Positions 1 through 48,288 of a stretch of DNA of 64,000 nt are shown here, in pieces. A model generated the notes under the pieces. That model did no database searches and was not told the origin of the DNA. It worked only from the letters and a program-made list of their open reading frames with translations. The position numbers and the translations under genes are program-made. Every line of letters starts with the position of its first letter. Within the stretch, counting starts at the first letter, position 1. The stretch lies in the NCBI GenBank assembly GCA_014871385.1, contig CM026421.1, positions 26,778,752 through 26,842,751 on the forward strand. The letters are read 5' to 3'. The DNA is from Ceratodon purpureus. Lineage: Eukaryota > Streptophyta > Bryopsida > Pseudoditrichales > Ditrichaceae.

Positions 1-911
1 ATCCTTTTCACGGGAGTTCCAAGGAGGAATCACGGTAGGAGGATAGGAAACGAGAGGGACAGGAAGATTCTCAGGGATGTCAACGATGATCAAGTCGACT
101 CCCAGATGATTCTCAACCTGGCACCGCTCAGGAACTTCGTTCTGGCGGCCACGTCCAAACTGGAGAAACAATGCTATAGGGTTAGACTGTATGAAATTAA
201 TTGAAGTGTATGTAATATCGAATTATGTAAGAAGAGAATCATACCTTGCGCACGAAGTCTAGAGTTTTCACCCAATCCGGATGGCCACCCTTGTCTTTGA
301 GCTCCATGTTACGAACCAGTAACGGGGTCACGGATGAGTTGATGATAGAAACACCAGTGGAATGGAGAGTTCCTGCGGAGGAGGTGCTTGCCGGGAGAAG
401 TCTGGCCTTCCTTTGTTCCAGAAGACCTCTGGTGATAGCGGATGCACTGACCGATGAAGGCGCAGGAGTAGGGGACGGATTGGGAACGACAATCACAGGA
501 GATGGAATGGCAGCGCCCTTCTCCGGTGCGGAGGACTCTGCACCAGTCTCCTGAGAGCCCTGGGACGTAGCACCCAGCTTTCGCAGTCGCCGCCCCCGCC
601 CTTTCTTCGGTGGAGGTGCAGATGATTGATCCTGGAGGCCTTCGGCCTCATCAGAACCGTCTCCAGAGTCGTCGATGGCTATTGATCCCGCGTCAAGCTC
701 AGCTTTGAGCTCCGCTTCAGAATCAACAACGAAACCTCGAATGCAATCGAGGTACCAACAACCAGCGGCTAGGTGCGGAGAGCTGAACCTCTTCAGCTGC
801 AGAGGAGTATAGATACACTGATCAGAGCCTCTCTGAATCCACGAGGCGAAGTATGAAGGGAACTTCTCAGGATCAATTGCACCTTTTGGAAGCAGCTCTC
901 TGTTGAAGTAC
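1..911 (-). other. Last visible exons of the giant gene
   Basis: Exon 245-911 has a good acceptor (TTTTCATTAG) and a donor AAG|GTATGA. It is followed by an 85-bp intron and exon 1-159, preceded by acceptor TTTCTCCAG; phases agree (2 entering, 0 leaving). Exon 245-911 encodes a compact start with several Trp, Tyr and Cys residues, then a low-complexity acidic and Pro/Ser linker with a basic patch (KKGRGRRLRK). Exon 1-159 opens with FGRGRQNEVPERC and then a hydrophobic strand ending DLIIVDIPEN, open to the window edge. The last motif loosely recalls motif IV (DPPx) of amino-methyltransferases, but with E in place of the second P; this is a guess. Confidence 0.5.
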
Positions 912-3900
912 CTAATGAAAATCAAGTGCCATATTGATCAGAATCATAGTATTGACAGTAAATAAAAGCGAAAAAGAAAAAAAGATAAAAATTCGAAGTG
1001 CATAAAAGTCATACCGGTATGTCACACGCTTAACAACATCTGCTGCTCCCGGATAAGTGGAAAAATCAGACTTCTTATCAAAAGGCTTTTCTGCGCGGGT
1101 ACTTATAAATGCGGGGAAAGCCTTTTCCCAAAGGAGAATACGCCAACTCTCCACATATGCGTCTGGCCGCAACAGTCCCGGGAAGGACTTCCACTTGATG
1201 ACAAGGTTCTCGGTCTTGCAGATGTCATCAAACTCCCGGGTAACAGCATCCTCTATCTGCGATTGAAAGGTAAAGTCATCGACATAAATATTGACATGGG
1301 ACAAAGAAGAAGTAGTATCTGTAATTATTTCGAAGTATGAAAGTACTGTACCCCAGCCCAGAATGTTGCCTTGCTCAACCAAGGGTCAAAGTCGGCCTCC
1401 TTAAAGTCCTGGGGCAAAAATCTGTAAGATTGTCGTGCACTTGCTGAAGAGTTCCACCACCTCAGCCAACGCGCCTTGAACTTTGCATCAACAGCTGCAG
1501 GAACAATCTTCTGAAGCTTCTCCACTGTCATCTCCGGCTTGGAGAAATCACTGTAATGCCGATTGATCTGGGAAGTGAACATTACATGAACGGGAAGGTT
1601 AGTGTTTAGATTACTTATTCAAAAGTAAAGTACAGATGTGAAGAAACTAACCTCCGCGAGGAAGTCATCACCGTTTTTGGGATTGGCAATGGCGAGGTAC
1701 TTGGTGAAGTCCTTCTTCTTAATGTAGTCGACCATGTTGGTCGAAGCGGCAGACATGGCATCCCATACACCTGCCGCCGTTTGCTCTCTTATGGGTGTTT
1801 TCTCCTTGTAGGCCCGGGCAACTTCGTCAGAAGCAGCCACGATTTCTCTCTGGAAAATAAAATAATCAACTTCTGAGTATAAACAGCATGGCAATTCATG
1901 ACATTTAGAAGCGTGAGGGGGGGGGGGGGGGTGGAATTGCTTACACGATAAAGAAATGTGATGAAGATTTTGGTTGGCAAAGTAAACCATCCAGGAATTG
2001 ATGGTTTGTGATTCAAACATATTTGGTACTCCGCTGGTGAGAGCAGATCCTTGAATTCCTCCAATTTCATCACACCAAAAGAGCGAATACGGAAGAGTTT
2101 TGCAGGAAGATTACTCTTCACGTAATCATTCTCTGTAGACCTGCTCGAAGATATGGTAGTTAGTTAAAGCCGTGTAGTGAAAGTTCAAGCAGCTTTCAAG
2201 AATTGAGGACAAGAAGTAGGGAAAAAGTGCTTACCAGTTGATGTCGTGCATGGCATGAAGAAGGTTTCCCACACGACCGCGTGGGTCAAGAACAATGCAA
2301 TGCACGGAGATGTGCCAAGCTGGATCATCATAGTGATGGTTGTTGATATGTCTGAACCATGCGGCAAGGCGATGGTTACCTTCCCAGACATAGAACATCT
2401 TCCCGGAGAACTCCTTCCAGTCCGGATCGGCCAAGAGCTCATCCTCGAAAGCATCGTTGACTTTCTGCCAACAAGGGCTCCAGTCAGCCTTGATCTCCTC
2501 AGTGACATCGGCGGTCTTCTCTTCGTGGTTGTACATGGAAATGTACATGACACGGTCTCCATCTCTATATCCATTGACAAACTCTCGCTCCAAATGTTGA
2601 ACTCCCATTTCTCCTACAGGTCGCACTCTTGCCATTGACTGCATCCTGCAGAGGGGTACGAGGATACGGGACTTCGTCTTTGGGAGTATTCGGAGGTCGT
2701 TGATGACGGTTGTAGAGTCCAATTTGAATTGTTTTCTGTGTTCCAATTCACTGTCCACTGCATTCGTCAATTCAATCGGACAAGATGGCGCTGGCAACTG
2801 ATCCTGTGTTTGTGTTTGAGTTACCTGTCAAACGTCATACTTATTTAGAGTTGATTCAAAGATAATGAACGTAAGCAAATCAAAAACAATAATGTAGAAT
2901 ATAACAATTACTTCGCAGACTGGTACATCTCAGACTGCAGCAGAAATAAGTAGAGCTTAGGCCACTATGTGCGTCGTGCACGACTATAGTACTCCCTAGC
3001 CTGTCTACAGTTCCAGTGACGGCGCCTCTTCCAAAATCGCCTAGTCTGCTGGACAGGGCATGGCAGTATCGCCGGGAGGGCGAAGACAACATGGGCTGGC
3101 CTCCTCACTCTAATAGGCGAGGATGGAGAAGGTGGAGACATAGGCGGGGTCCCAAGTCTTGGAGAGGTAGGCATGTAGCCCGGGGATGTAGGCTCATAGA
3201 CGGGAGACGTAGGCATGTACTGAGGAGAGTGGACCTCGAGAGGTCCACTACCTAAACCTACAGGGCTGCCCAAATCACATCTACATAACTAAGGCTGATC
3301 AAAAGAATCCGAGAGGTCGGAGACATTGATGACTGAGATTGGCGAACTGATGGACAAGGGTGCATCTGAGAATACCTAGAGAAATAGAACAAAGACAATG
3401 TCAGATTCTTAACTAAGCTTTCAAAAGAAAATTAGAAAGGACTATGGAGGTTAAATATACTATGCTATTCTTAATTGAGAAGACAAATTCCAACAACTTA
3501 CCTCAGTTTCAGCTGGAGTTGGGCCATCAAAGTCACTTGCAGTGAATTGCTCTGTGACCTCCTACAATACAAAGGGAAAACAAATAATCAGAAATCATTA
3601 GAAAACACCAAACAACAAGAAGAAAGCAACAGTTGACATTTAAACATATTCATTCCCCAGATATAATTCTTATTGTTTTTAAAATTAGCCCCCTTCTCCC
3701 CCTCCTCCTCCCCCACATCCTCCCCCTCCTCCAGGGGGGGTGTCGGCTCCGAATGCGCCTTGGCGGAGGCACCTCCCCCCGGGTCAGGGGCCTCCCACTC
3801 TTCCTCTGTGGCTGCAAGCATGAGCACGAGGGCCGCGGCCATGGCCTCCGCATTGAGCCCCTGCATAGCACTGCTTGCCGCCCCCGCAATCACCCCCTCC

Positions 3901-6900
3901 TCCAGGGGGGGTGTCGGCTCCGAATGCGCCTTGGCGGAGGCACCTCCCCCCGCGTCAGGGGCCTCCCACTCTTCATCTGTGGCTGCAAGCATGAGCACAA
4001 GGGCCGCGGCATTGGCCTCCGCATTGAGCCCCTGCATAGCACTGCTTGCCGCCCCCGCAATCACCCCCTCCTCCAGGGGGGGTGTCGGCTCCGAATGCGC
4101 CTTGGCGGAGGCACCTCCCCCCGGGTCAGGGGCCTCCCACTCTTCCTCTGTGGCTGCAAGCATGAGCACTAGGGCCGCGGCATTGGCCTCCGCATTGAGC
4201 CCCTGCATAGCACTGCTTGCCGCCCCCGCAATCACCCCCTCCTCCAGGGGGGGTGTCGGCTCCGAATGCGCCTTGGCGGAGGCACCTCCCCCCGGGTCAG
4301 GGGCCTCCCACTCTTCCTCTGTGGCTGCAAGCATGAGCACGAGGGCCGCGGCATTGGCCTCCGCATTGAGCCCCTGCATAGCACTGCTTGCCGCCCCCGC
4401 AATCACCCCCTCCTCCAGGGGGGGTGTCGGCTCCGAATGCGCCTTGGCGGAGGCACCTCCCCCCGGGTCAGGGGCCTCCCACTCTTCCTCTGTGGCTGCA
4501 AGCATGAGCACGAGGGCCGCGGCCATGGCCTCCGCATTGAGCCCCTGCATAGCACTGCTTGCCGCCCCCGCAATCACCCCCTCCTCCAGGGGGGGTGTCG
4601 GCTCCGAATGCGCCTTGGCGGAGGCACCTCCCCCCGGGTCAGGGGCCTCCCACTCTTCCTCTGTGGCTGCAAGCATGAGCACTAGGGCCGCGGCATTGGC
4701 CTCCGCATTGAGCCCCTGCATAGCACTGCTTGCCGCCCCCGCAATCACCCCCTCCTCCAGGGGGGGTGTCGGCTCCGAATGCGCCTTGGCGGAGGCACCT
4801 CCCCCCGGGTCAGGGGCCTCCCACTCTTCCTCTGTGGCTGCAAGCATGAGCACGAGGGCCGCGGCCATGGCCTCCGCATTGAGCCCCTGCATAGCACTGC
4901 TTGCCGCCCCCGCAATCACCCCCTCCTCCAGGGGGGGTGTCGGCTCCGAATGCGCCTTGGCGGAGGCACCTCCCCCCGGGTCAGGGGCCTCCCACTCTTC
5001 CTCTGTGGCTGCAAGCATGAGCACGAGGGCCGCGGCATTGGCCTCCGCATTGAGCCCCTGCATAGCACTGCTTGCCGCCCCCGCAATCACCCCCTCCTCC
5101 AGGGGGGGTGTCGGCTCCGAATGCGCCTTGGCGGAGGCACCTCCCCCCGGGTCAGGGGCCTCCCACTCTTCCTCTGTGGCTGCAAGCATGAGCACTAGGG
5201 CCGCGGCATTGGCCTCCGCATTGAGCCCCTGCATAGCACTGCTTGCCGCCCCCGCAATCACCCCCTCCTCCAGGGGGGGTGTCGGCTCCGAATGCGCCTT
5301 GGCGGAGGCACCTCCCCCCGGGTCAGGGGCCTCCCACTCTTCCTCTGTGGCTGCAAGCATGAGCACGAGGGCCGCGGCCATGGCCTCCGCATTGAGCCCC
5401 TGCATAGCACTGCTTGCCGCCCCCGCAATCACCCCCTCCTCCAGGGGGGGTGTCGGCTCCGAATGCGCCTTGGCGGAGGCACCTCCCCCCGGGTCAGGGG
5501 CCTCCCACTCTTCCTCTGTGGCTGCAAGCATGAGCACTAGGGCCGCGGCATTGGCCTCCGCATTGAGCCCCTGCATAGCACTGCTTGCCGCCCCCGCAAT
5601 CACCCCCTCCTCCAGGGGGGGTGTCGGCTCCGAATGCGCCTTGGCGGAGGCACCTCCCCCCGGGTCAGGGGCCTCCCACTCTTCCTCTGTGGCTGCAAGC
5701 ATGAGCACGAGGGCCGCGGCATTGGCCTCCGCATTGAGCCCCTGCATAGCACTGCTTGCCGCCCCCGCAATCACCCCCTCCTCCAGGGGGGGTGTCGGCT
5801 CCGAATGCGCCTTGGCGGAGGCACCTCCCCCCGGGTCAGGGGCCTCCCACTCTTCCTCTGTGGCTGCAAGCATGAGCACGAGGGCCGCGGCATTGGCCTC
5901 CGCATTGAGCCCCTGCATAGCACTGCTTGCCGCCCCCGCAATCACCCCCTCCTCCAGGGGGGGTGTCGGCTCCGAATGCGCCTTGGCGGAGGCACCTCCC
6001 CCCGGGTCAGGGGCCTCCCACTCTTCCTCTGTGGCTGCAAGCATGAGCACTAGGGCCGCGGCATTGGCCTCCGCATTGAGCCCCTGCATAGCACTGCTTG
6101 CCGCCCCCGCAATCACCCCCTCCTCCAGGGGGGGTGTCGGCTCCGAATGCGCCTTGGCGGAGGCACCTCCCCCCGGGTCAGGGGCCTCCCACTCTTCCTC
6201 TGTGGCTGCAAGCATGAGCACGAGGGCCGCGGCCATGGCCTCCGCATTGAGCCCCTGCATAGCACTGCTTGCCGCCCCCGCAATCACCCCCTCCTCCAGG
6301 GGGGGTGTCGGCTCCGAATGCGCCTTGGCGGAGGCACCTCCCCCCGGGTCAGGGGCCTCCCACTCTTCCTCTGTGGCTGCAAGCATGAGCACGAGGGCCG
6401 CGGCATTGGCCTCCGCATTGAGCCCCTGCATAGCACTGCTTGCCGCCCCCGCAATCACCCCCTCCTCCAGGGGGGGTGTCGGCTCCGAATGCGCCTTGGC
6501 GGAGGCACCTCCCCCCGGGTCAGGGGCCTCCCACTCTTCCTCTGTGGCTGCAAGCATGAGCACTAGGGCCGCGGCATTGGCCTCCGCATTGAGCCCCTGC
6601 ATAGCACTGCTTGCCGCCCCCGCAATCACCCCCTCCTCCAGGGGGGGTGTCGGCTCCGAATGCGCCTTGGCGGAGGCACCTCCCCCCGGGTCAGGGGCCT
6701 CCCACTCTTCCTCTGTGGCTGCAAGCATGAGCACGAGGGCCGCGGCCATGGCCTCCGCATTGAGCCCCTGCATAGCACTGCTTGCCGCCCCCGCAATCAC
6801 CCCCTCCTCCAGGGGGGGTGTCGGCTCCAAATGCGCCTTGGCGGAGGCACCTCCCCCCGGGTCAGGGGCCTCCCACTCTTCCTCTGTGGCTGCAAGCATG

Positions 6901-9900
6901 AGCACGAGGGCCGCGGCATTGGCCTCCGCATTGAGCCCCTGCATAGCACTGCTTGCCGCCCCCGCAATCACCCCCTCCTCCAGGGGGGGTGTCGGCTCCG
7001 AATGCGCCTTGGCGGAGGCACCTCCCCCCGGGTCAGGGGCCTCCCACTCTTCCTCTGTGGCTGCAAGCATGAGCACTAGGGCCGCGGCATTGGCCTCCGC
7101 ATTGAGCCCCTGCATAGCACTGCTTGCCGCCCCCGCAATCACCCCCTCCTCCAGGGGGGGTGTCGGCTCCGAATGCGCCTTGGCGGAGGCACCTCCCCCC
7201 GGGTCAGGGGCCTCCCACTCTTCCTCTGTGGCTGCAAGCATGAGCACGAGGGCCGCGGCCATGGCCTCCGCATTGAGCCCCTGCATAGCACTGCTTGCCG
7301 CCCCCGCAATCACCCCCTCCTCCAGGGGGGGTGTCGGCTCCGAATGCGCCTTGGCGGAGGCACCTCCCCCCGGGTCAGGGGCCTCCCACTCTTCCTCTGT
7401 GGCTGCAAGCATGAGCACGAGGGCCGCGGCATTGGCCTCCGCATTGAGCCCCTGCATAGCACTGCTTGCCGCCCCCGCAATCACCCCCTCCTCCAGGGGG
7501 GGTGTCGGCTCCGAATGCGCCTTGGCGGAGGCACCTCCCCCCGGGTCAGGGGCCTCCCACTCTTCCTCTGTGGCTGCAAGCATGAGCACGAGGGCCGCGG
7601 CATTGGCCTCCGCATTGAGCCCCTGCATAGCACTGCTTGCCGCCCCCGCAATCACCCCCTCCTCCAGGGGGGGTGTCGGCTCCGAATGCGCCTTGGCGGA
7701 GGCACCTCCCCCCGGGTCAGGGGCCTCCCACTCTTCCTCTGTGGCTGCAAGCATGCGCACTAGGGCCGCGGCATTGGCCTCCGCATTGAGCCCCTGCATA
7801 GCACTGCTTGCCGCCCCCGCAATCACCCCCTCCTCCAGGGGGGGTGTCGGCTCCGAATGCGCCTTGGCGGAGGCACCTCCCCCCGGGTCAGGGGCCTCCC
7901 ACTCTTCCTCTGTGGCTGCAAGCATGAGCACGAGGGCCGCGGCCATGGCCTCCGCATTGAGCCCCTGCATAGCACTGCTTGCCGCCCCCGCAATCACCCC
8001 CTCCTCCAGGGGGGGTGTCGGCTCCGAATGCGCCTTGGCGGAGGCACCTCCCCCCGGGTCAGGGGCCTCCCACTCTTCCTCTGTGGCTGCAAGCATGAGC
8101 ACGAGGGCCGCGGCCATGGCCTCCGCATTGAGCCCCTGCATAGCACTGCTTGCCGCCCCCGCAATCACCCCCTCCTCCAGGGGGGGTGTCGGCTCCGAAT
8201 GCGCCTTGGCGGAGGCACCTCCCCCCGGGTCAGGGGCCTCCCACTCTTCCTCTGTGGCTGCAAGCATGAGCACTAGGGCCGCGGCATTGGCCTCCGCATT
8301 GAGCCCCTGCATAGCACTGCTTGCCGCCCCCGCAATCACCCCCTCCTCCAGGGGGGGTGTCGGCTCCGAATGCGCCTTGGCGGAGGCACCTCCCCCCGGG
8401 TCAGGGGCCTCCCACTCTTCCTCTGTGGCTGCAAGCATGAGCACGAGGGCCGCGGCCATGGCCTCCGCATTGAGCCCCTGCATAGCACTGCTTGCCGCCC
8501 CCGCAATCACCCCCTCCTCCAGGGGGGGTGTCGGCTCCGAATGCGCCTTGGCGGAGGCACCTCCCCCCGGGTCAGGGGCCTCCCACTCTTCCTCTGTGGC
8601 TGCAAGCATGAGCACGAGGGCCGCGGCATTGGCCTCCGCATTGAGCCCCTGCATAGCACTGCTTGCCGCCCCCGCAATCACCCCCTCCTCCAGGGGGGGT
8701 GTCGGCTCCGAATGCGCCTTGGCGGAGGCACCTCCCCCCGGGTCAGGGGCCTCCCACTCTTCCTCTGTGGCTGCAAGCATGAGCACTAGGGCCGCGGCAT
8801 TGGCCTCCGCATTGAGCCCCTGCATAGCACTGCTTGCCGCCCCCGCAATCACCCCCTCCTCCAGGGGGGGTGTCGGCTCCGAATGCGCCTTGGCGGAGGC
8901 ACCTCCCCCCGGGTCAGGGGCCTCCCACTCTTCCTCTGTGGCTGCAAGCATGAGCACGAGGGCCGCGGCCATGGCCTCCGCATTGAGCCCCTGCATAGCA
9001 CTGCTTGCCGCCCCCGCAATCACCCCCTCCTCCAGGGGGGGTGTCGGCTCCGAATGCGCCTTGGCGGAGGCACCTCCCCCCGGGTCAGGGGCCTCCCACT
9101 CTTCCTCTGTGGCTGCAAGCATGAGCACGAGGGCCGCGGCATTGGCCTCCGCATTGAGCCCCTGCATAGCACTGCTTGCCGCCCCCGCAATCACCCCCTC
9201 CTCCAGGGGGGGTGTCGGCTCCGAATGCGCCTTGGCGGAGGCACCTCCCCCCGGGTCAGGGGCCTCCCACTCTTCATCTGTGGCTGCAAGCATGAGCAGA
9301 AGGGCCGCGGCCATGGCCTCCGCATTGAGCCCCTGCATAGCACTGCTTGCCGCCCCCGCAATCACCCCCTCCTCCAGGGGGGGTGTCGGCTCCAAATGCG
9401 CCTTGGCGGAGGCACCTCCCCCCGGGTCAGGGGCCTCCCACTCTTCATCTGTGGCTGCAAGCATGAGCAGAAGGGCCGCGGCCATGGCCTCCGCATTGAG
9501 CCCCTGCATAGCACTGCTTGCCGCCCCCGCAATCACCCTCTCCTCTAGGGGGGGTGTCGGCTCCGAATGCGCCTTGGCGGAGGCACCTCCCCCCGGGTCA
9601 GGGGCCTCCCACTCTTCCTCTGTGGCTGCAAGCATGAGCACGAGGGCCGCGGCCATGGCCTCCGCATTGAGCCCCTGCATAGCACTGCTTGCCGCCCCCG
9701 CAATCACCCCCTCCTCCAGGGGGGGTGTCGGCTCCGAATGCGCCTTGGCGGAGGCACCTCCCCCCGGGTCAGGGGCCTCCCACTCTTCCTCTGTGGCTGC
9801 AAGCATGAGCACGAGGGCCGCGGCCATGGCCTCCGCATTGAGCCCCTGCATAGCACTGCTTGCCGCCCCCGCAATCACCCCCTCCTCCAGGGGGGGTGTC

Positions 9901-12013
9901 GGCTCCGAATGCGCCTTGGCGGAGGCACCTCCCCCCGGGTCAGGGGCCTCCCACTCTTCATCTGTGGCTGCAAGCATGAGCAGAAGGGCCGCGGCCATGG
10001 CCTCCGCATTGAGCCCCTGCATAGCACTGCTTGCCGCCCCCGCAATCACCCCCTCCTCCAGGGGGGGTGTCGGCTCCGAATGCGCCTTGGCGGAGGCACC
10101 TCCCCCCGGGTCAGGGGCCTCCCACTCTTCATCTGTGGCTGCAAGCATGAGCAGAAGGGCCGCGGCCATGGCCTCCGCATTGAGCCCCTGCATAGCACTG
10201 CTTGCCGCCCCCGCAATCACCCCCTCCTCCAGGGGGGGTGTCGGCTCCGAATGCGCCTTGGCGGAGGCACCTCCCCCCGGGTCAGGGGCCTCCCACTCTT
10301 CCTCTGTGGCTGCAAGCATGAGCACGAGGGCCGCGGCCATGGCCTCCGCATTGAGCCCCTGCATAGCACTGCTTGCCGCCCCCGCAATCACCCCCTCCTC
10401 CAGGGGGGGTGTCGGCTCCGAATGCGCCTTGGCGGAGGCACCTCCCCCCGGGTCAGGGGCCTCCCACTCTTCCTCTGTGGCTGCAAGCATGAGCACGAGG
10501 GCCGCGGCCATGGCCTCCGCATTGAGCCCCTGCATAGCACTGCTTGCCGCCCCCGCAATCACCCCCTCCTCTAGGGGGGGTGTCGGCTCCGAATGCGCCT
10601 TGGCGGAGGCACCTCCCCCCGGGTCAGGGGCCTCCCACTCTTCACCTGTGGCTGCAAGCATGAGCAGAAGGGCCGCGGCCATGGCCTCCGCATTGAGCCC
10701 CTGCATAGCACTGCTTGCCGCCCCCGCAATCACCCCCTCCTCTACCTCAATCTCGCCCTCTCTCAATGCTTTCAAAAGAGTCAGGCCCCAATTCGTCTCT
10801 CACTCATGACCCACAAACAGAACCCCAACAAATCTAAACACCCACAAATCATAAAAACCCAAAACCCGAACTTCGATCCTCACCTCCTCGGTGGCAGGGC
10901 CGCGGTCTGACCTGCCATCCTCACTCGCAGTGACCTCCTCCAGACGCTCCTCTCCATGCTCATCTCCTCGGTCCGCCATCTCCTTACCTGTGCCCTGCTC
11001 TACCGTGGCCGCGGGTGCTTCTTCCGATGGGGCTTGCAAAGAGGCCTTCCCTCTCCCACCTCGACCCTTACCCCTCCCTCGACCCCTCACCTCCGACTTT
11101 CGACCTCTCCCTCGGGCCGACCCCTCATCCATGTCCACTTCTGGACCTGGACTTCCCGCAATGTCAAGCGAATGATCATCCTCCCCACTAGTTTCAGTAG
11201 GACTTCCAGGGTGCCCTCGCCCCGCTCGTGTAGCAGCAAGTAGTTCCCCACCTTCGCCCGCCTCCATAATTTGGCGTCTCGCTCTCCTAGCGACTTTTCT
11301 CAAGGTCTCATGATCTGACTCCTCGCCCGTACCCACTTCTGGCGTCTTCTCCTCTTCAACGTCTTGCTCAATCCTAAACAAGTCGCCAATCTGCGCAAAT
11401 GTTTAGGACTATGATGAAATTTACTACTCCACTTTTATTTTGAACAACCGTTCAGATTCATGCAGCTTCACTATTCTAAACAGTAAAACAACGAACCCGC
11501 AGCAAAGACATTACTTCAAACGAACTATAATTTACATTTAATATCTTTTTATTGATGGATTCTGAAACTTACCACATCTATATTACCATGGTCGCCCGAC
11601 TGAGAATCCGTCCCTCCTGTCGAACACTCCTTGAATCCGAAAGAAGGTTGCGGTGTCTCCAAAGTCGGACTACAATTCAATCCTAGCTCTTCCGACATCT
11701 CCAGATGTTTCTCTCCGCTACTTATTACTTCATGCTCCTCATGCTCAACTGCGGTATCCTCTAAAACCTCATCTTCCGCCTCTACTATGGACTCTAGAAT
11801 GAGTTTACGGATGCTACAAAATTTAATTGCCACAGGCAGCCCAGCTCCTCGAACCTTCAGAGGTGCACTCAAGAGGTTGCCTTTCGACTTTGACTTCCTA
11901 CTTAATTCTCTCCTCTTCCTCGATCTCCTGTTAGTAAAATCTGTACCACCTGGTTTTCTTCTACGCCTAGGAGTGACAAAAGTGGAGGGAGCTGACCCTC
12001 CACTCTCCTTCAT
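1..12013 (-). CDS. Giant multi-exon gene: repeat array plus GNHR (ParB/Srx-like) domain, partial
   Basis: I do not recognise this as a named gene. Exons read on the minus strand from canonical splice sites with matching phases: 11573-12013 (ATG at 12013), 10884-11390, the repeat exon about 3720-10745, 3502-3561, an uncertain stretch 2912-3375, 2235-2824, 1945-2140, 1652-1849, 1352-1567, 1015-1256, 245-911 and 1-159, which runs off the window. The N-terminal exon is rich in Arg/Lys and could hold a nuclear signal. The second exon is acidic and RG-rich. Then come 41 repeats of 57 residues, CTD-like heptads, the GNHR domain, and a C-terminal part with a Pro/Ser-rich linker. An in-frame TAG at 3289-3291 and ambiguous splicing around 2.9-3.4 kb leave open that it is decaying, alternatively spliced, or really two genes. 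It lies head-to-head with the MULE-like transposase, about 0.8 kb apart. Confidence 0.5.
1015..2140 (-). other. Four small internal exons of the giant gene
   Basis: Exons 1015-1256, 1352-1567, 1652-1849 and 1945-2140 each have GT donors and pyrimidine-rich AG acceptors. Their phases chain correctly: 2140 completes a Trp codon split with 2235; 1849, 1567 and 1256 all start in phase 0; 1015 leaves phase 2 into 911. Introns are about 85-105 bp. The encoded segment is mixed charged and aromatic (for example RWLRWWNSS and KWKSFPGLLRP) and reads as a globular alpha/beta domain. I see no family motif. The consistent phases are the main evidence that this is a real gene and not chance ORFs. Confidence 0.55.
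2235..2824 (-). other. Exon with GNHR motif, ParB/sulfiredoxin-like
   Basis: This exon encodes about 197 residues. After a polar start there is RVRPVGEMG followed by a helix (VQHLEREF), then a strand (RVMYISMYN), a Glu-rich helix region, and FYVWEGNHRLAAWFRHI at about 2355-2395, with GNHR at 2369-2380. In ParB/Srx-fold proteins a substrate Asp/Arg-Pro segment precedes a G-x-H-R nucleotide-binding loop and a following helix, which is the order seen here. The C-terminal part has another strand pair (WHISVHCIVLD) and ends at donor AACTG|GTAAGC. The fold assignment is inference from motif order; a structural model would settle it. Confidence 0.45.
2912..3375 (-). other. CTD-like heptad segment with in-frame TAG and ambiguous splicing
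   Basis: From acceptor TTTCTCTAG at 3376 the frame reads a Ser/Pro/Asp-rich stretch of 28 codons, then TAG at 3289-3291, then continues in the same frame through three heptads of form YxPTSPx at about 3155-3220. A donor lies at AGA|GTGAGG (about 3106) and an acceptor CCCTGTCCAG near 3057. A rival reading splices from GTTATG at 3290 to that acceptor and skips the heptads, keeping a different frame open to about 2912. Which is used cannot be decided here. The heptads resemble the Pol II C-terminal repeat YSPTSPS but there are only three. Confidence 0.35.
3502..3561 (-). other. Sixty-base exon of the giant gene
   Basis: The sequence is bounded by acceptor CCTTTGTATTGTAG and donor GAG|GTAAGT, both strong. 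It encodes 20 residues (acidic and Thr/Pro-rich) in phase 0 on both sides. It joins in frame to the next exon, which begins at 3375. Confidence 0.55.
3720..10745 (-). repeat. 171-bp coding minisatellite, 41 copies
   Basis: A GC-rich direct tandem array has a 171-bp unit (57 codons). The landmark cccccgcaat occurs at 3881 and again at 10721, exactly 40 x 171 bases later, so 41 copies carry no net insertion or deletion. On the minus strand each unit encodes an Ala-rich helix (GVIAGAASSAMQGLNAEA and following), then EEEWEAPDPGGG, then SEPTPPLEE. Variants are few: Ala-Met-Ala against Ala-Asn-Ala (gccatggcc or gcattggcc on +), cacgag, cactag or cagaag next to it, and Glu/Asp before EEW. The unit being a multiple of three keeps both strands free of stops over 7 kb. 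The minus frame is favoured because the flanking exons lie on that strand. Confidence 0.9.
10884..12013 (-). other. N-terminal exons of the giant gene
   Basis: Exon 11573-12013 starts at ATG 12013 (an in-frame TAG lies about 45 bases further upstream). It carries basic clusters RRRRKPGG and RRSRKRRELSRKSKSK, then an acidic stretch, and ends at donor GTG|GTAAGT. Exon 10884-11390 begins after acceptor TTGCGCAG and ends at donor GAG|GTGAGG; both junctions are phase 0. The second exon is Glu-rich, then RGRGRKSEVRGRGRGKGRGG. This composition suits a nuclear or nucleic-acid-associated protein, but no domain is recognised. The intron 10746-10883 leads into the repeat exon; its acceptor is uncertain (AGAG|GGCGAG or TTGAG|GTAGAG). 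Confidence 0.55.
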
Positions 12014-12366
12014 ATGTCTAACTAACGAGAGAAGTCTCCTCACAATATAGCTCTCCTCCTAACTTCCCTCTAACTTATGTATCCCAAACCTGCAACCCCC
12101 CTGACTCAGCCCTAAATACTTTCCATATTCTAAACCTACTTGAATTAATGAAAACTAAAAACAAATTGCAACTTGAATTAAAGCTGATGAGATCAATCTA
12201 TATTTGAAGAGAATAAACCAAGCCCACATAATATTAAAAGATTTGAATTAAGCACAGGAATACTTGTATTAAATATGGATGCAAGTGACGGCTCACTCTA
12301 ATCTCACTCACAGTCTATCTGTCCAGCACTTTATTATGAATATTGAGGAACTCTAACACTAAAAAA

Positions 12367-12457
12367 AATATAGAATTTGAATAAATCATATGCTTGCATT
12401 AGTCCTATAAAGATAAAACTAATGCATGAATTTGATTTATTCAAATTCTATATATTT
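12367..12457. repeat. Imperfect hairpin, arms of about 37-40 bp
   Basis: The left arm 12367-12403 and right arm 12418-12457 are near-perfect reverse complements (core tatagaatttgaataaatca) around a 14-base loop. It sits between two divergent genes. It could be a small foldback MITE or an inverted duplication. No target duplication was identified. Confidence 0.75.
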
Positions 12458-12810
12458 ATTGTTTTAAATGCAGAAAGAGTAGACGGCTCTTTTTAATCCA
12501 ATCACACCCCATAAAATATAGAATCTGCTCCACCATTCAAATACGCGAAGCAATATTCTAAAAATCTTCCTACATATTTATGGGCCTGCAAAAAGCAACA
12601 TTATAATTAGTTAGCGCCGTCTCTCTTTAATCATTCATTCGTTACGTAGCAGAATGAATCATTACCTAGTCGTCCACATGGACATTCCAATTTGAATAAA
12701 ATGATCAACAGCGATGCATCATTCCTCTCACTTCGCTCTCGCGATACTGCTTTGCTACTACACTCACTCTTCTTCCTTCTTCCTCTCGTACATTTGTGTT
12801 GCCTGCGAAT

Positions 12811-15800
12811 ATGGGGATGGTCTGTCTGTACGCCCAAGGCATGGGCATCCCTCTTAGGTTTCGCGTAGATGACGATGGTCTAGCTACGGTGTCCTCTCTT
12901 CGCCTCAGTCTCAGATTCCATTTTCGTGAGGATTCCATCAGTATAGAGGAGGAGATCTTTGATGACGTTACTGCCGAGGTTACCCACACTCTCGGGCAAC
13001 CTTCAGTGAGAGATGAGAACAACATGTTGCAGTGGAGACTCCTCCCTGGATCCTATAGAGTCTATGGTCTTACTGATTCTCTTATGGCTGCATCCACTGA
13101 GATCCTCACCCCTCGTCGCTCTTCTACTTGCACAATTCAGACTCCCTTACCTCGTGATGTCAAAGTCAAAGTCGAGCCTGGTACCGAGACTTCAGATGTA
13201 GAGAAACCTCCTCCGACCGTCATATCTCTCTCTTCTGATGACGAAGTCAGTCCCGTCAAGTTGGTGCCCAAGGTCCACGCTGATGCTCCTCCTTCCAATG
13301 TCTCACCTCCATTGTCCCAGGTCACAGTTAGCATTGTTCCGCTCCTTAAAGAGATTGCTAAGACGCGTGGGTCCAAAAACATTTTGAAGAAGATAGACTA
13401 TTCCACTATTAGACACGAGAGAGTAGAGTACTTGCCTGCGAAGTTTGATGGTCCGGTTCTTTTTGAGTTGCCCCCAGCTGCTGCAGGATCCTCTAAGCTC
13501 GCCGCCAAGTCTATGCAGGGAATGGATAAACGATACGACGGACACTTGTGGACCAAGACCATCACAACAAACATAAAAAACGACTTCGGACTCTCTTTCC
13601 GAAGTTCCACCTGCGTCGGATGGTTGCGTTGCACGAACGTGGAGTGTGACTTCCTCAAGCGTGTTCCCAAGATCTTCGAGGTTAACGAGACTGAGTTTGA
13701 AGGCTGTACCCTGCAAGCTTTTGTCATGGACCAGCCTCCTCCATCTGACTCCACGCTAGTGTGCAAGGTATGTAAAGAACCTCCATCATGTGTAGCTACA
13801 TGCGAGGCTAAGATTTATTACGTTGTGGGCAAACCGAATCAGACTAGAGCGTGTATTCACATAGGAACACATCATCATCCAGTGAAAGTAGGAGACTACA
13901 GAGACTCTAAAGCAGAGATTAGTAGCTTAATAGAAGAGCAGGTCGAGATGAACAACAAAGCAACAAAGAGCGCCGTTGTCCTGGAGGCGAGCAAACTCCT
14001 CATCGGGAGCTACCTCCTACAGCCCGAGGATGCACCACCGAGGAAGCTGACGATGGAGGAGCTGGTTCCTGTTCTGGATCGATGCAAAGACATGGCGTCA
14101 CCAAACATCCGCAACAAAGTCGCCACCTTCAAAAAATTCAACAGGTACGGAATCATGGACGGTATCACCAAGCTCCGTGGTAACAGTCTCTGGGCGTATG
14201 TCCAGGAGTATAGGTTTCCTGGTCAGGGAGCTATGCGTGACAAAGTCTTCGTCTTCAAGATGTCGGAGGTCGGGCCGGGAAGTGGTGTCGACTTGGTCAG
14301 CCGTATGCAAGCTGGTGGCGACTTGGAGAACGCATGGATCATGTTCGACCATGTCAAACGCGTCAAAGACTGGTCGACGATGGCGTGCCATGTGTACGAC
14401 GCCACCTACTGCCGCGTGATGACAATCGCCACTTGCGACATGCAGTCCGAGGACACGGACGCCCAGCTCGTCTTCTGGAAAAACCTGAACCTGGTCATGG
14501 AGATCAATGGCGTTGCAGCGCCGAACTTCAAGGGGTTCATGGCGGCTAACGCACAGGCCAATTGGAATGCAGTGCGAATCCTTTACGGCAATGGCAACAA
14601 AGAGGACCCAATGGAGGACCGGGAGAGGTCGTGCTTGTTCCACTGGACTCAGAACATGGTGGCGTATACGCAGAAGCACTTCCCCGAAGAACTTTGGGAA
14701 CAGCACAAGAAGATGTGCACTCAGTACAAGAATGCGACCAGCATGGCAGAGGCGGAAACTCTGTACCACGCGTTGCGAGCATGGTGGGCCTCCACCGGGG
14801 TCGTTGGCGAGAGCGGGCTCATCAAACTCGATCAGTGGCTGTCATTCTGGCACCACCGCTTCCGCCAGTGGGGGGGATTCATGACCGAGGTATTATCTCT
14901 GCACTCTGTTTTCATGTTTTTGATACTGGTTTCCTAGCCCTAACCTAGAAACCTGTAATCCGTGAATCTAACGGCACCTACTGTCAAATCTGCAGAAATT
15001 CACGAAAGAAGAACTCACAGAGATGCCCACCTGTAACCTCGCCGAAACAGTTCACAACAAGTGGCTCCAAGCTTCAGGAAACAATGGGAACGACCTGTAC
15101 GTTGCTACCGTGGACGATTTCGTTCGGGCTTTTCTACAGGTTGTCAACTACTACCAGTTCCTCAAAGGTGACGTCGGCGGAACAGGACCATCCAAGAAGG
15201 AACTCAGGCTCCGGATGGCTGAACGCAACGCGAAGAAATGGGGAAATCCTACAGTGCTCGACAAGCCCATGCTCGATATGCCAGGCGCGGATGAGTTCTG
15301 CACTCGTCAGCCTATCATGCCTGGAGCGGAAGTCTTCGGTTCACAGAAGCGAAAAGCCGACGTCCTTATCGGAGCTGACGAGGAGTCTCATCGCCCGGAC
15401 AAGACAAACTTCTCACGCCCAAGAGGCCCAAGACGTGCTGTCAGGGCTCGCCCTATGCAGATGCCCGTCATTGAGGAAGACGACTCCGAACACGACACCG
15501 AGGTACAATGTACGCAACCTCCTGCCCGGGAAGTTCATTCCCCTTTACCTTCACCTGTGAACAAGGGCGGCATTCGCCATGTCAACGCGGTTGAAGAAAC
15601 CAAGGTGGACGTAAAGGAGTGGCACATTTCCAGACTTCACAAACTTTTTGCAAAGGGCTGCTGGGCCCAAAGAGCTGAAACGAAGAAGAAGTGCACTGAG
15701 AGAATTGTCAGGGGGCCCCATTGCACAGCTGCACCGACCTACACTGGGCTCTGGACTAACTATCGCAGGAACACTGTTGAGAAGACAGAGTTCTTCTTCT

Positions 15801-16489
15801 GCTCCGACGATATTGAGCGCTGCGTGAAAGGCTCTAAGCGCAAGTGGGTAGCGCACTACTCAAAGGACCAGGAATTCCCCTCCATTCAAGAGGTCTGGCC
15901 AGTGAAACTAGGTACTAATCTAAAACTGACTGAGATTCTTGCCCTCGAAGCAGCAGGCTTTCAACTTCCGCCTAAAAAGCCGGTCTCCCCAAGACGCCTC
16001 TTCTCCTCTGCCCCGCCCCCTGCGAATCTCAACTCGGTGCCAGTCCCTGCAGACGCTGACCGCTACCCAGGCAAGAGAGACGGCAAGATGGTGAAGCGCA
16101 CTGCCACTCGTCCCAATCCGGCGCAGCGACTATCCATGGGCTCCTCCGAGTCTCTCAAAGCGCGCCTCCGTTCCGTGACCATGATACCTGAGCCGGGCCA
16201 CGGTTGCATCATTGGGCTGGATTCGGGCGTCGCTCCTCACATCACACGTTACCAGATTACCATCAGTTCTTACCCTGGTTGCACTTGCCCAGCATTCAAG
16301 AAGACAATGACTACGTTCAAAGGCAGGACTCAGTTCACGTATTGTAAGCACCTTTACTACATACTCTTGAAGGTCTGCAACCGTGATCCCGAAGCCGAGC
16401 TTTTCATCCATGCGCCTACCTTTAGCTTCAACGAGGTCAAGCTTCTCCTAGAGAGTGGAATCTTGCGTCACCCCTTGGCGAAGAAGTAG
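12811..16489 (+). CDS. MULE-like transposase with SWIM zinc finger, two exons
   Basis: Exons 12811-14889 and 14996-16489 join in phase 0 across a 106-bp intron (GAG|GTATTA ... TGCAG|AAATTC), giving about 1190 aa. The start is ATG 12811; another ATG lies two codons downstream. The N-terminal third has a SUMO-interaction-like motif VISLSSDDE (about residues 137-145) and a VKVEP sumoylation-like site. A Cys-rich segment (CVGWLRCTNVECDF and VCKVCKEPPSC) may be a DNA-binding zinc domain. The MULE-type DDE region includes VYDATYC (about 526-532), FMAANAQANWNAVR (about 576) and CLFHWTQNM. A SWIM finger follows near the C terminus: GCTCPAF ... YCKHLYY. In related plant proteins the second acidic residue lies where this one reads M-A-A-N, so activity is doubtful. 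It is GC-richer than its flanks. Confidence 0.8.
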
Positions 16490-16743
16490 GTAGCCCTCCT
16501 ACTTTAGAACTGCCATTTCCACGATGGCCATTTGTCACGTAGTGAATGATTTTAGTAATATACCATGTACTAAGTCAGCTATTCAGAAGCTGTATTGACT
16601 TTTTCATTATATTAAAGGCTTTGTCGTTCACATTGATTGCATTCTATTTCAATACATTCTATCTTGAAGAAGTGCACTATATACCTCGTATCCTCTGACA
16701 TGTACCCTTTATTACAGCAAACATATACTTGTTATTAGATGTC

Positions 16744-17196
16744 CTAATCTTCGAACCTAACACGTTTAGGGTTGCCCACTACACTATCAGCAGGGCTCCG
16801 AACCTCTGACTGTACTACAGGACAAACTACATTCGCATTCACTTTCGTTCCCACACTTGGAGCGTGTCCTTGGTATGATCGTTTCAGCAATGGCCCACCT
16901 CCCCGCCTCCGATTCACTGATTCCCTAGAATAGGTTCCCCTTGGGATCTTTCCAACCCTGGAGTATGCATGAGTTTGCAAAGGCACATCTGCGTCCTCCT
17001 CCAGCACTATGATTTCATCCGAATTTTCTGAACGTGGAGGGTCGGCTCTTACATCCGATTGGACGTCAACATCCGTTGTCGAAGGACGCCCTTGGCTGTT
17101 GGCCATCACCTCTTCTTCGTCCTCCACCTCAACATATGGTTGAAATGGACAAACATCGTCAGCAAGTGAAACAACAATATCTCTGACGTCTTCCAT
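16744..17196 (-). CDS. Hypothetical 150-aa acidic protein, convergent to the transposase
   Basis: The single open frame begins with ATG 17196 and ends TAA at 16744. I do not recognise the product. The N-terminal half is acidic (VEVEDEEEVM) and contains SDEIIVLEEDADV, which has the form of a SUMO-interaction motif. The C-terminal half is basic, with NRRRGGGPLLKR and NPKRVRFED. No zinc ligands or catalytic pattern are seen. It lies 255 bp past the transposase stop on the other strand, so it could be a second ORF of the same mobile element or a host gene. It may also lack further exons. Confidence 0.45.
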   Translation of the reverse strand: MEDVRDIVVSLADDVCPFQPYVEVEDEEEVMANSQGRPSTTDVDVQSDVRADPPRSENSDEIIVLEEDADVPLQTHAYSRVGKIPRGTYSRESVNRRRGGGPLLKRSYQGHAPSVGTKVNANVVCPVVQSEVRSPADSVVGNPKRVRFED

Positions 17197-17399
17197 AGCT
17201 GCTGTCCCGCAGTACGGAAAAGAGCTTCACAAAACACCAACAGAAAAGAGGAAGAGACATTCCATAATCCTAACTTAAATATCCGTGAAGGAGATGCTTG
17301 GCGCCCTTGAAAATCGGCTATTCATTCATTTGAAAGTTGCATCTTCCTCAACTGAATGGAAAAGGATGAGGGTTGAGCAGAAGTCATTTAGCTTTTAAA

Positions 17400-17800
17400 A
17401 TTAAAAAATAATAAAAAAAATTAAAAATAAGTTATAAAAGCAAAAAGGAAAAAAAGCAAAAATAAATATTAAGGTTGAAAATAATATGAAGGCGACTAAG
17501 AAAATGAAAGATAAAATAAAATGAAAGACAAAATAAAATGAATGACAAAATAAAATGAATGAGAAAATAAAATGAATGAGAAAATAAAATGAAAGAGAAA
17601 ATAAAATGAAAAGGAAAATAAAATGAAAGAGAAATTATAATGAAGGAGACAAGAAAATGAAAGAGAGAATAAAATGAAAGAGAAAATAAAATGAAAGAGA
17701 AAAAAAAATGAAAGAGCGAATAAAATGAAAGAGAAAATATAAGGAACTAGAAAATAGAATGAAAGAAAAAAGAAAATGAAAGAGAGAAATAAACCATGTA
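17400..17800. repeat. A/G-rich degenerate minisatellite (gaaaataaaatgaaaga)
   Basis: Many imperfect copies of a roughly 17-base unit such as agaaaataaaatgaaag run from about 17,490 to 17,790, with a poly-A-rich lead-in. The minus-strand Phe/Ser/Leu-rich open frame over it is a by-product of composition. Confidence 0.85.
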
Positions 17801-18186
17801 GACCATGACGGATGATTTCTAACAATGTTAAGAAATTGTTACGATATTAAATGTTACTTTATCCCTCTTAAGAGCTTTAATACCAATACATTTTATGCGG
17901 TAATTTGCATATAAATTTGAGGAGATAAAGGGAATTAATGTATGCCTAAACTAGTTAGAAGGAGCTGGAGCATAGTAATTGGTGCACGTTAAAAAATTAA
18001 TCATCAAAAAAAAGAGAAAACGAACTACAAATTCAATGAAAACACTGTAATAATTCCACGGTTATAGGGTCAATAAAAGTACTAAAATTAGTATTTTTCC
18101 AAAAATATACTTAGAATATTCGAATCTTCTAATTTTATATTTTATTTTTAGTAAAAAAAGTGCTATTTTTAGGTTCTGTCCCCCAC

Positions 18187-18250
18187 TCTGTGCTCTCCGC
18201 TCTCCAAATCTGCGCTCACCGCTCTCCGCTCTACGCTCTCCGCTCACGTA
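18187..18250. repeat. CTCTCCG short repeat
   Basis: About eight imperfect copies of gctctccgctc-like words lie in 64 bases. The flanks 17.8-18.7 kb are AT-rich and hold no gene I can support. Confidence 0.6.
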
Positions 18251-18920
18251 CAAGCTACGTCCCGCTGAAGCATCAACCCGGACAGTAGGTTAGTTTGATC
18301 ACCTGGCAATAAAATCTCAAAAACATAAATGAATTTCGACTCGCTCTCTAACAATGCCTAAGTGATTTGAAATCAGCAAGTGTTGGTGGGGGAGACTCAC
18401 CCGAAGAAGTGTCGGCCGTTGGAGGTAGGGAAAGAACGACGCTCCTTCTCTGCAGCACCCTAAACCTTTGAATACCGCATGCAGGGTGTGGGGGGGTTGA
18501 TTAGTAATGCGTTCAATCAGCAAGACTCAAGTGGAAAATAAACTCACGGACTCTATTTCTAACAGTGCCTATGTGAGCATGTGACCACGAGGATGGAGAT
18601 TTGCTTGCTCACCTCGAGCCGTAGCAGCGAGTACAAGTACAGGCTCAACCCAGTTGCCGCTCCTTCTGGGGCACACCCCAATAGTTAGCAGAGTATGTGT
18701 GAATTTTTTTTAAAAACGAAAATGAACCTAAGGGCCACCGAAAGAGGTGTTCCCATGCCTTAAGATCTAAGACAACGTGTCTCAATATGTGACAACAGGC
18801 ACCGAAGGTGGCGCTCAGATCGACTTACCATGTTCTGACGAGGCTGAAAAAGGCTTAGTGGAGGAGCAGCAGGTCTCCCCAAATCAGGGAGCAACCATGG
18901 CACTCACCTGCATGCCACCA

Positions 18921-29315: not shown

Positions 29316-29321
29316 TTGATC

Positions 29322-31235
29322 ATGAAGATGGACAAGGAGCATACAGTCATTAAGGTAGGGGAGGGAACTGAGAAAGGGAGGGAGAAAGTGTGGTCCAAGG
29401 AGTTGGGATGCCACACAGCAATCCAGTTCCAAATGAAAACATTCCCTGACGTTAGAGTGAACGTCGTGTACACCATGGTGGTGGCAATCGGATTGTTCTT
29501 AATCGCCGCGCAGCTCCTCCCTCTCAGTAGTTTCGACGCCAAGCTTCTCGGGTGCGCCACGGAGATGGCAGCGAAGCAGGACACTCTGCAACCTCTTCTC
29601 TCACAAGCGCTTCTCCACGAGAAGATCAACGCAACTTCGATAGACGTACGCCACGGGGAGGTTCGGGTCTTCAAGCCTCACGGATTAGCAACACACTTGT
29701 ATATCGAAATGAGCGCCTATCGAGGCGGCCCGCGCGCGTTTTCCATAGTCGGCCTCACCTCGAAGCCCGTCGAAACGCATCACCGACCGCCTTACGCCTG
29801 CGAGTGGGTGTCGCGCTCTACTGGCCAGGTGATCAAAGGCCGGCCTCACAAGGTTCTGCCCGATTGGGACTACGGGAAGCTCTACACTGTTGTGGTGATC
29901 ACTTGCAACTTTGTGGAGGATGTCGGAGTGGACGGAGATGGCGGGGAACTCATCCTGTATGCTAGTTACGGCGACCATTACAGGCAACCGGAGAGAATCG
30001 TTGCGCTCACAGAATCAAAGGGGGAGTACAATGCGAGCATCTTCGATCCTCAGAACTTCCCATACGATTATGTGTACTGTGGGTCGTCAGTCTACGGTGA
30101 CATTAGCCCGCAGAGAATGCGGGAATGGATGGCATATCATGCGAAATTCTTAGGTGATAGGTCACATTTTTTCCTCCACGACGCTGGTGGCTTTCACGAA
30201 GATGTGCGCAAGGTTCTGGAGCCATGGATTCAGCAAGGGAGAGTGACTCTGCAGAATATTAGACAACAAGAGATTTACGACGGATATTACCACAATCAGG
30301 TAACCATCGTCTTCTCAATTTGTTCTGCATTTATCTTCTTACAGCTCGCAGTCTCAATGTAAAGTTTGTGAGTCAATTATTGCAATCAATTGACGAAAAT
30401 ATGTTGTGTGCATCAGTTTTTAATTGTGAACGACTGCCTGTTTCGGTCTCGGTTTATGGCGAATTGGACATTCTTCTTCGACATTGATGAATACATGTAT
30501 GTGGAGCCTACGACAACTCTAGCGGAGGTGCTGAATGAGAATCCTAACATTACTCAGATTACGATCGAGCAAGTTCCCATGGCGAAGGATATGTGTGTTG
30601 CCGATAACTCCACTCAAGGCGAACATCAAAGGTATGCACCCAGTTCCTAATTTGTGATCAATTGGATCGTGATTTCTTTGATGAAAATACATCAGGTTCT
30701 AGTGCATAAGCCGTTGTCAAGATGACATTTAGGTCATGGCAGATTCTCGAATAGATAGCCTGCAAGTCACCATAGCGTCGGCCATTTCTAGTATTATTGT
30801 ACTGTGCAAGTGCCAAAATAAAACCTGAATATGGTGAAATCGATGCTAAGTTCGCAACATTGTATGAATGTGCGCAGTCGATGGGGATTTGAGAAACTGG
30901 TATACCGGAAGGTGTTGAAGCGAGGAATCCGTTATGATCGCAAGTACGTCGTACAAGCGCGGCACGCCGAGGCAGCGGGAATCCACATGTCGATGAACAT
31001 GCGGAAAGGGCAGAACCTGTACCCCAAAGGAGACCGGATCCGCTACTACCATTACCATGGCACCATCAACAAAAGGGACGAAGTCTGCAACATTTTTGTC
31101 GATTCAGGAAACAAAACAGCTGTGCAGCGGCACGAAAAGCACTACCACCGGCTGGAGGAGACTATGGCGAAATTGGGGAAGGAGGTGAAGTTGTTCGAGC
31201 TGAATACTGTCGGGCCACAACCTGTCATTGTTTAG
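29322..31235 (+). CDS. GALS: GALS-type beta-1,4-galactan synthase (GT92), three exons
   Basis: Exons 29322-30299, 30417-30631 and 30878-31235 join in phases 0 and 2 through GT-AG introns, giving 516 aa, near the usual length. A single N-terminal membrane segment (about residues 47-67) predicts a type II Golgi protein. The GT92 (DUF23) core follows: HFFLHDAGG, then VLEPWIQQGRVTLQNIR, YDGYYHNQ at the first splice, then FFFDIDEYMYV with the DxD motif at about 348-350. The C-terminal part shows WGFEKLVYR, GIHMS and IRYYHYHGTI, typical of plant GALS proteins. Members extend beta-1,4-galactan side chains of pectic rhamnogalacturonan I using UDP-galactose. ATG 29322 is chosen over the upstream in-frame TTG; ATG 29328 is also possible. 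It looks intact. Confidence 0.9.
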
Positions 31236-39212: not shown

Positions 39213-39681
39213 TGTTGATGTACGAGGAAATTTCTAATGCTCACCAGACTTTGTAGCTCTCAGTGTGTACGAACTAGACGTAGATTAAAGCAACTACACA
39301 TCAAGACGCAATAACTCAACGCACAGTACTCACACACAGTAACTGAGAATTCGTGAATATATTAAGCAAGGATCAAGAACATGGCCATACTGCCTATGGC
39401 TGCTAAGCTGCTCCCACTGACACTACACAGTGGATTCTTGGAGCGTGGTACAGCCACTACACACCAGGAATCAAAGAGAGCTACTCCAGTCACAATCATG
39501 GTACTTAATCCCTTGTGTTCCAGCTGTAATTTGGCGCGGAACTCCCAGTGATGATTACTTCTTCGGCAGAATTTAAAATGTATACGGCCGGGTCCAGCTG
39601 GTGCCACGTAACTCAGAAATGCTACGTACCCAGTCTGATCTGGTTAACCTATTGTGTAGATTTAAGACTACTATTCCAATA
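39213..39681 (-). repeat. 3' LTR of copia 1
   Basis: It is 469 bp and nearly identical to 44568-45036. In element orientation it starts TATTGGAATAG and ends CATCAACA, so its first bases are not the usual TG. It directly follows the polypurine tract. Confidence 0.95.
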
Positions 39682-39691
39682 CTCCCACTCG
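39682..39691 (-). other. Polypurine tract of copia 1
   Basis: The plus strand reads ctcccactcg, that is CGAGTGGGAG in element orientation, immediately before the 3' LTR. Confidence 0.75.
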
Positions 39692-39721
39692 CAATAGGTT
39701 AACCTGTCAACATACCCGATG

Positions 39722-45036: not shown

Positions 45037-45041
45037 CTAAT

Positions 45042-48276: not shown

Positions 48277-48288
48277 TGGTATCAGAGC
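48277..48288 (+). other. Primer-binding site of copia 2 (tRNA-iMet 3' end)
   Basis: tggtatcagagc follows the LTR without a gap; it is complementary to the 3' end of plant initiator tRNA-Met, the commonest copia site in plants. Confidence 0.95.

Follow-up and report, generated by a model that had tools for sequence, protein, structure and literature searches.

A hypervariable tandem repeat, probably a coding exon of a Mutator-like transposon, in the moss Ceratodon purpureus

Analysis of a 64,000-nucleotide stretch of the Ceratodon purpureus genome (C1:26778752-26842751, referred to here as the window) revealed that its tandem array of a 171-bp unit lies inside a transposable element of about 21.1 kb (window positions −2843 to 18262). 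We consider it likely that the array forms a coding exon of gene 2, the second gene of this Mutator-like transposon, in which unit length and frame persist while the sequence of the unit turns over. This explanation is backed by the element ends with a 10-bp target site duplication (TSD), the location of all nine listed unit places within the element, the presence of an array in 31 of 34 loci (with a period of 171 in 28 of the 31), the codon frame (27 of 27 unit consensuses and 10 of 10 exons), a methylase domain in the same gene, and the discordant kinship of arrays and flanks. Against it stand the weak splice sites of the repeat exon, which were picked by eye to keep the frame, a transposase without a Pfam match above cut-off, 46 frame-shifting spacings among 409, an atypical methylase motif IV (DIP[EK]), a stop codon in the gene of the window copy, and a plus strand that is open as well.

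The initial annotation had described forty-one in-register copies of a whole-codon unit, without net indel, which encode an Ala-rich, acidic repeat of 57 residues, and each of these points was borne out. Tandem Repeats Finder (TRF) reports a period of 171 over 3722-10742 (41.1 copies, 98% match, 0% indel), successive spacings equal 171 in 40 of 40 cases, and from 3722 onwards the array holds 41 full units of 57 codons each in register, read in a minus-strand frame that is open from 10775 to 3588. The units vary mainly at two sites, 107G>T and a double change at 119-120, and those at the right end are more divergent. Units 3-32 display a three-unit ordering (equal at lag 3 in 16 of 27 comparisons, shuffle p 0.002, uncorrected for the 12 lags tested), which we read, together with the divergent end units, as the footprint of growth by unequal exchange.

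That annotation had also failed to recognise the 57-residue repeat, and our searches in Pfam, NCBIfam, the PDB and public proteins agree. Every match in Pfam and NCBIfam stayed below the curated cut-offs, no PDB chain appeared at E ≤ 1, eight units gave no match at E ≤ 10 among 7,999 public protein candidates scored, the N-terminal part of the predicted protein plus two units gave none among 7,994, and exact-pattern scans of viral and prokaryote contigs returned 0 matches. The repeat fits no described family in the libraries searched, and literature searches found no description of it. Of 24 aligned units, 23 retain the short motif AHS and 22 the short motif AxAAA, in an alignment that leaves out L039, L046 and L048 as well as C8b, C8c, C6u and L045. 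An AlphaFold (AF2) model of four units is of low confidence (pLDDT 40), and with the same low confidence each 57-residue bead would consist of two helices and an acidic Pro/Gly linker.

The 171-bp length also suggested a centromeric-type satellite, a candidate we rejected on account of the GC content of 70% and the location of the unit inside the element at all nine listed places. Among the matches listed (part of 429; 39 of 99 first-look candidates scored), these places comprise the window plus eight further loci, each alignable to the element, and none is a large array outside genes or elements.

The host element and its two genes

The genome searched comprises 362.5 Mb in 151 contigs. Within the window, the element and its predicted genes are laid out as follows.

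1-18262, no strand: part of the element within the window (element start at −2843)
1-2140, minus strand: predicted gene 2 exons 8-13 (remainder of exon 13 and exons 14-16 left of the window, where the methylase-like domain is encoded)
2235-2824, minus strand: predicted gene 2 exon 7, conserved domain with the motif VWEGNHRLAAW
3109-3375, minus strand: predicted gene 2 exon 5/6, in-frame TAG at 3291-3289 in the window copy
3502-3561, minus strand: predicted gene 2 exon 4, phase 0
3717-10745, minus strand: predicted gene 2 exon 3 (the array with short margins), phase 0 on both sides, borders set by eye from GT/AG and frame
10884-11390, minus strand: predicted gene 2 exon 2, charged, phase 0, codon score best in the true frame by leave-one-out
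11573-12013, minus strand: predicted gene 2 exon 1 with a putative start codon
12796-16489, plus strand: transposase-like gene 1, divergent from gene 2 (ORFs 12796-14937 and 15023-16489, putative intron between them)
17477-17793, no strand: 17-bp minisatellite, 18.5 copies by TRF, just inside the right end
18199-18262, no strand: right terminal inverted repeat of about 64 bp, with a 53-column core nearly identical to the left one
18263-18272, no strand: right 10-bp TSD CGCTGAAGCA (its left counterpart, −2853 to −2844, falls beyond the window)

Alignments to other copies end at −2843/−2844 on the left (C10, C1b, C2, C8a, C8c) and at 18262/18263 on the right (C10, C8b, C8c), where those of C10, C8b and C8c run through the 17-bp minisatellite. 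A 10-bp TSD was present in all three loci with both ends read, namely the window, C10 and C8c, the latter two with duplications of their own. Since the TSD length fits the 8-11 bp given for Mutator-like elements (MULEs) in the parts of PMC6446971 consulted, and the window element carries terminal inverted repeats, we assigned it to the Mutator-like group.

All 63 genome copies of gene 1 that were scored, out of 2,777 first-look candidates, are 98-100% identical, and the element is a high-copy family in the Ceratodon purpureus genome. The joined ORFs of gene 1 gave no Pfam match at E ≤ 10, and none that reaches a cut-off; by eye, they seem to contain a second-Asp and a CxC...CxH pattern of the MULE type. 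At its putative second-Asp motif (14536-14556), a presumed catalytic site, the window transposase differs from 10 of 10 other copies, and the window copy may be non-autonomous. A new superfamily of cut-and-paste elements, possibly called Lanisha, is reportedly described in the Ceratodon purpureus genome paper, where the element may already have a name.

Gene 2, putatively spliced and expressed, spans 12013 to −1193 with predicted exons 1-5/6 and 7-16. The splice sites of exon 3 are weak, with a purine-rich acceptor and the donor GAT/GTGGGG. In exon 5/6, three heptads (YxPTSPx, 3157-3219) presumably resemble those of the RNA polymerase II CTD. A stop at the codon 3291-3289 occurs in none of 11 other aligned copies, while C9u has a TAG two codons earlier; an exon border at 3288, which would avoid the stop, was rejected, as other copies show one open exon at 3375-3109. 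Exon 7 gave 150 scored matches at 85-100% in its own genome (of 1,895 first-look candidates), and the only part of gene 2 for which a relative was found includes it: the fern hypothetical protein P0001 shares 30% identity across 23% of a query made of exons 7-13 (E 2.2e-5, 7,994 candidates scored). The likeness of exon 7 to ParB is confined to its GNHR motif; neither exon 7 nor the fern relative gave any Pfam match at E ≤ 1, and the AlphaFold model of the exon reached a pLDDT of 38.

The C-terminal part of gene 2 matches PF01555 (N6_N4_Mtase) with 34.2 bits, above the curated cut-off of 26.7, along with phrog_3008 (E 3.6e-10) and, weakly, the PDB entries of DpnA and CcrMI. The catalytic motif IV of N6/N4 DNA methylases reads [DNS]PP[YFW]; at the corresponding place, every one of the 15 loci that gave a match (from 17 sources) has DIP[EK], so that the predicted C-terminus appears methylase-like and its catalysis doubtful. 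Given the TAG in exon 5/6 and the altered second-Asp motif of the transposase, the window copy is probably defective; copies without these changes exist.

Beyond the element, the window contains a copia-type LTR retrotransposon on the minus strand (39213-45038, 471-bp terminal repeats 98.5% identical) and a second copia-type element on the plus strand (48089-54562, 188-bp end repeats 98.9% identical, 1202-aa ORF). Two ORFs at 61126-63919 resemble, as we assume, a Crypton/tyrosine-recombinase element, with a match to Pfam Phage_integrase at E 0.05, below the cut-off. An ORF at 29316-30362 with a partial match to glycosyltransferase family 92 above the cut-off is possibly a host gene.

Coding frame and unit number of the array

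Codon usage supports the earlier proposal that the array is coding on the minus strand. With a codon score trained on the flanking exons of gene 2, the minus frame of the array reaches z = 3.0-3.5 while the remaining five range from −2.6 to +0.9, and the best of six frames equalled this score in at most 0.2% of 1,000 shuffles. The true frame ranked first in 10 of 10 exons (≥150 nt) when each was left out of the training; nine introns scored mostly negative, and two short ones reached 0.10 and 0.04 per codon in one frame or another, versus 0.14 for the array. Among the six frames, an open one on the gene strand also scored highest for all 27 unit consensuses to which the codon score was applied; these leave out C8b, C8c, C6u and L045, have small margins for L029, L034, L035 and L039, and are related copies of about seven unit types by eye rather than 27 independent tests. 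Open frames and divisibility by 3 are weak evidence of coding, because the plus strand is likewise open across the whole array (3673-10809) and shuffled units are often open: dinucleotide shuffles of one unit left on average 2.7 of 6 frames open, and at least three in 58% of 5,000.

In other copies, 34 loci were read: the window, six with longer arrays of the window unit type, two with two units each, five exon 7 neighbours that head the list of exon 7 matches and 20 chosen manually further down. A tandem array occupies the homologous site in 31 of them and is absent in L041, L043 and L044; the period is 171 in 28 of the 31. The other three are L039, with two units only (174 by TRF, 170 by anchor), L046 (period 441 by TRF; anchor spacings 60, 84 and 117) and L048 (period 84 by TRF; anchor spacings 84, 117 and one of 119). 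Arrays contain between 2 and at least 46 units, figures that are lower bounds because many stretches were cut.

The distant copies L046 and L048 carry a quite different array in the same place, TASMETMAAAAATAAMWEVG-like and with spacings of 20, 28 and 39 codons; 31 of their 32 anchor spacings are multiples of 3. On contig C8, C8a (L016/L017) and C8b (L018/L019) each comprise half an element; they point in opposite directions at a distance of 0.48 Mb, the array of each breaks off at a stretch of N, and TTCCCGGGG is common to both outer flanks. The two are probably one copy split by an inversion or misjoin at the array, and the 34 loci therefore represent at most 33 copies.

Across the 31 arrays, 363 of 409 spacings are divisible by 3; of the remaining 46, C8a, C8b and C9n account for 32. 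Where spacings depart from 171 in 171-bp arrays, most are frame-shifting, with one case each in C10 and C1b, two in C2, 11 of 45 in C9n and 12 of 30 in C8a. Slippage or sequencing error is possible for part of them, since C8a and C8b lie beside assembly gaps and 29 of 79 gap columns (11 arrays) fall within runs of at least four identical bases. C10 and C1b, aligned over 14.1 and 12.8 kb, match the window flanks with 99.4-99.6% identity and have 13 and 12 units, each with one frame-shifting spacing of 170 bp, versus 41 in the window. As these sisters are nearly identical, either the window array expanded or the sister arrays shrank very recently, and we take the 41 perfect units as a recent expansion in a copy that now has a stop downstream in its gene.

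Three other accounts of the array were weighed against these data. A non-coding minisatellite in an intron would let exon 2 splice to exon 4 in phase: the array frame joins exon 2 upstream and exon 4 downstream in phase 0, and since both exons are in phase 0 the frame also survives skipping of the array, the plus strand of which is open too. Such an intron is nonetheless very improbable, as the codon score favours the gene frame, highly divergent units mostly retain 57 codons and an open frame on the gene strand, and the GC content of the array is 70% versus 27-46% in nine introns. The strict register had originally been taken to suggest frame selection or very recent expansion. For the window copy recent expansion is the better fit, selection on the frame being visible at the level of the family only: that selection holds this particular array in register is very unlikely despite 40 of 40 spacings of 171 and a frame open along its entire length, given the frame-shifting spacings in C10, C1b, C2, C9n and C8a (the last beside an assembly gap) and the stop downstream of the array. 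A stand-alone gene under strict frame selection was rejected on the same grounds of frameshifts in sister copies and the stop in exon 5/6. Finally, long near-identical arrays are hard to assemble, those of C8a and C8b run into runs of N, and the count of 41 units comes from the assembly; an assembly artefact in copy number is nevertheless barely plausible, as the unit variants are ordered with distinct ends, the window contains no N, and other loci with unique flanks carry arrays of different length.

Sequence turnover between element copies

While unit length and frame persist in the family, the sequence of the repeat exon is hypervariable among copies. Amino acid identity to the window unit is 49% in C12n, 39% in C6n, 37% in L037 and 30% in L047 (the last two gapped), whereas the transposase copies whose coordinates adjoin those of C12n, L037 and L047 show 99% identity, and the respective values for exon 7 are 96, 95 and 89%. 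The ratio pN/pS of exon 7 is 0.15-0.41 in five more distant copies (C12n, C3n, C9u, C9n and C1n) and 0.54-0.81 in C2, C10 and C8a, which are close sisters and carry few changes; exons 1 and 2 together gave 0.47-1.13. Between array units, pN roughly matches or exceeds pS; one of 36 pairs reaches Fisher p < 0.05, uncorrected. Gapped nucleotide alignments raise the matches between unit types, and compensating indels may lie behind some of the unit differences; positive selection is not claimed.

Arrays and flanks also appear to differ in their histories. On either flank, C3n, C6n and C12n share 96-97% identity with the window, but in the unit 60-72%, while C9u is 87.5% and 92.7% identical on its flanks and 91% in the unit. 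From this discordance in kinship we infer that exchange or replacement of arrays between element copies is its best account.

Possible roles of the repeat exon

The closest likeness among known systems is VANC, the anti-silencing protein of VANDAL elements in Arabidopsis (PMC5735166 and PMC10398659, in part), the variable regions of which often comprise tandemly arrayed peptide motifs that, in the sections of PMC5735166 consulted, the authors speculate to confer target specificity. Gene 2 is similar in being an accessory gene of a Mutator-like element with a variable region of tandem peptide motifs. It differs in lacking DUF1985 and DUF287 among its Pfam matches and in having 57-residue units in up to at least 46 copies, a methylase-like domain and a moss host. 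With no domain common to both, we regard the resemblance as likeness and not membership. Extra ORFs beside the transposase of MULEs also include mudrB of maize MuDR as well as vanB and vanC of Hiun (excerpts of PMC6446971); we found no domain that they have in common with gene 2, and they are set side by side by description. Rehavkus, described in the same excerpts as MULE-like with a 9-bp TSD and a minisatellite before the 3' terminal inverted repeat (PMC6446971), is comparable in the placement of the 17-bp minisatellite at 17477-17793, the position of which is possibly also comparable to VANC target repeats; unlike in Rehavkus, the 171-bp array lies in a predicted coding exon of a second gene, and no PHD finger was found among the Pfam matches. 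Compared with the N6/N4 DNA methylases (PF01555, e.g. DpnA and CcrMI), the C-terminal part of gene 2 scores above the cut-off and departs in its DIP[EK] at motif IV. Bdelloid rotifers possess an N4C methyltransferase, a bacterial-type amino-methylase in a eukaryote (PMC8885841, in part), whereas the domain of gene 2 resides within a transposon gene and has an atypical motif.

Taken as predicted, the gene 2 protein would run from a charged N-terminal region through the 57-residue beads, the CTD-like heptads and the central domain to the methylase-like C-terminus. The array would grow, shrink and homogenise within each insertion, and units would be exchanged or replaced between element copies, which would leave arrays and flanks with separate histories. 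By analogy, the protein could be an accessory protein that works like VANC of the Arabidopsis VANDAL elements, the likeliest role in our view and one we propose with low confidence, and the repeat could serve as an evolvable multivalent binding surface or as a spacer that sets the N-terminal region apart from the methylase-like domain.

Of these two options, the pN/pS evidence favours the spacer over a specificity surface. The exon may be translated with its sequence being immaterial, such that turnover stems from fast recombination of tandem repeats, and frame and length are kept up by the dropping out of deviating copies from the transposing pool. We consider this a serious contender, albeit at somewhat below an even chance: it accords with pN about equal to pS between unit types (one of 36 pairs at Fisher p < 0.05), the contrast with exon 7 (0.15-0.41 in five more distant copies), unit counts from 2 to at least 46 and the low-confidence four-unit AF2 model (pLDDT 40), while the retention of AHS (23 of 24 aligned units) and AxAAA (22 of 24), and of the 57-codon unit length in 28 of 31 arrays, speaks against indifference to sequence. 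An arms race, in which a specificity region diversifies against host silencing or for the distinction of self from non-self, as proposed for VANC in the text consulted of PMC5735166, seems unlikely to us. Transposases that are 98-100% identical in 63 scored copies versus units at 30-50% identity would fit it, as would the tandem peptide motifs that VANC variable regions often hold too (PMC5735166, in part); but dN significantly exceeds dS in no more than one of 36 pairs, and apparent pN may be inflated by compensating indels. The related idea that the methylase-like protein acquires lineage-specific target or marking specificity as its repeat exon is swapped and re-homogenised, whether for cassette-switching, self-versus-other distinction or anti-silencing, has in our judgement a similarly small chance of being correct.

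Irrespective of its role, the family provides a natural series within one genome, with at least 63 copies, near-identical transposases and a repeat exon whose sequence and unit number vary from copy to copy. The role of such repeats thereby becomes testable by relating array type to methylation, small RNAs and expression of each copy, and the family shows how far a coding repeat turns over at constant unit length and frame.
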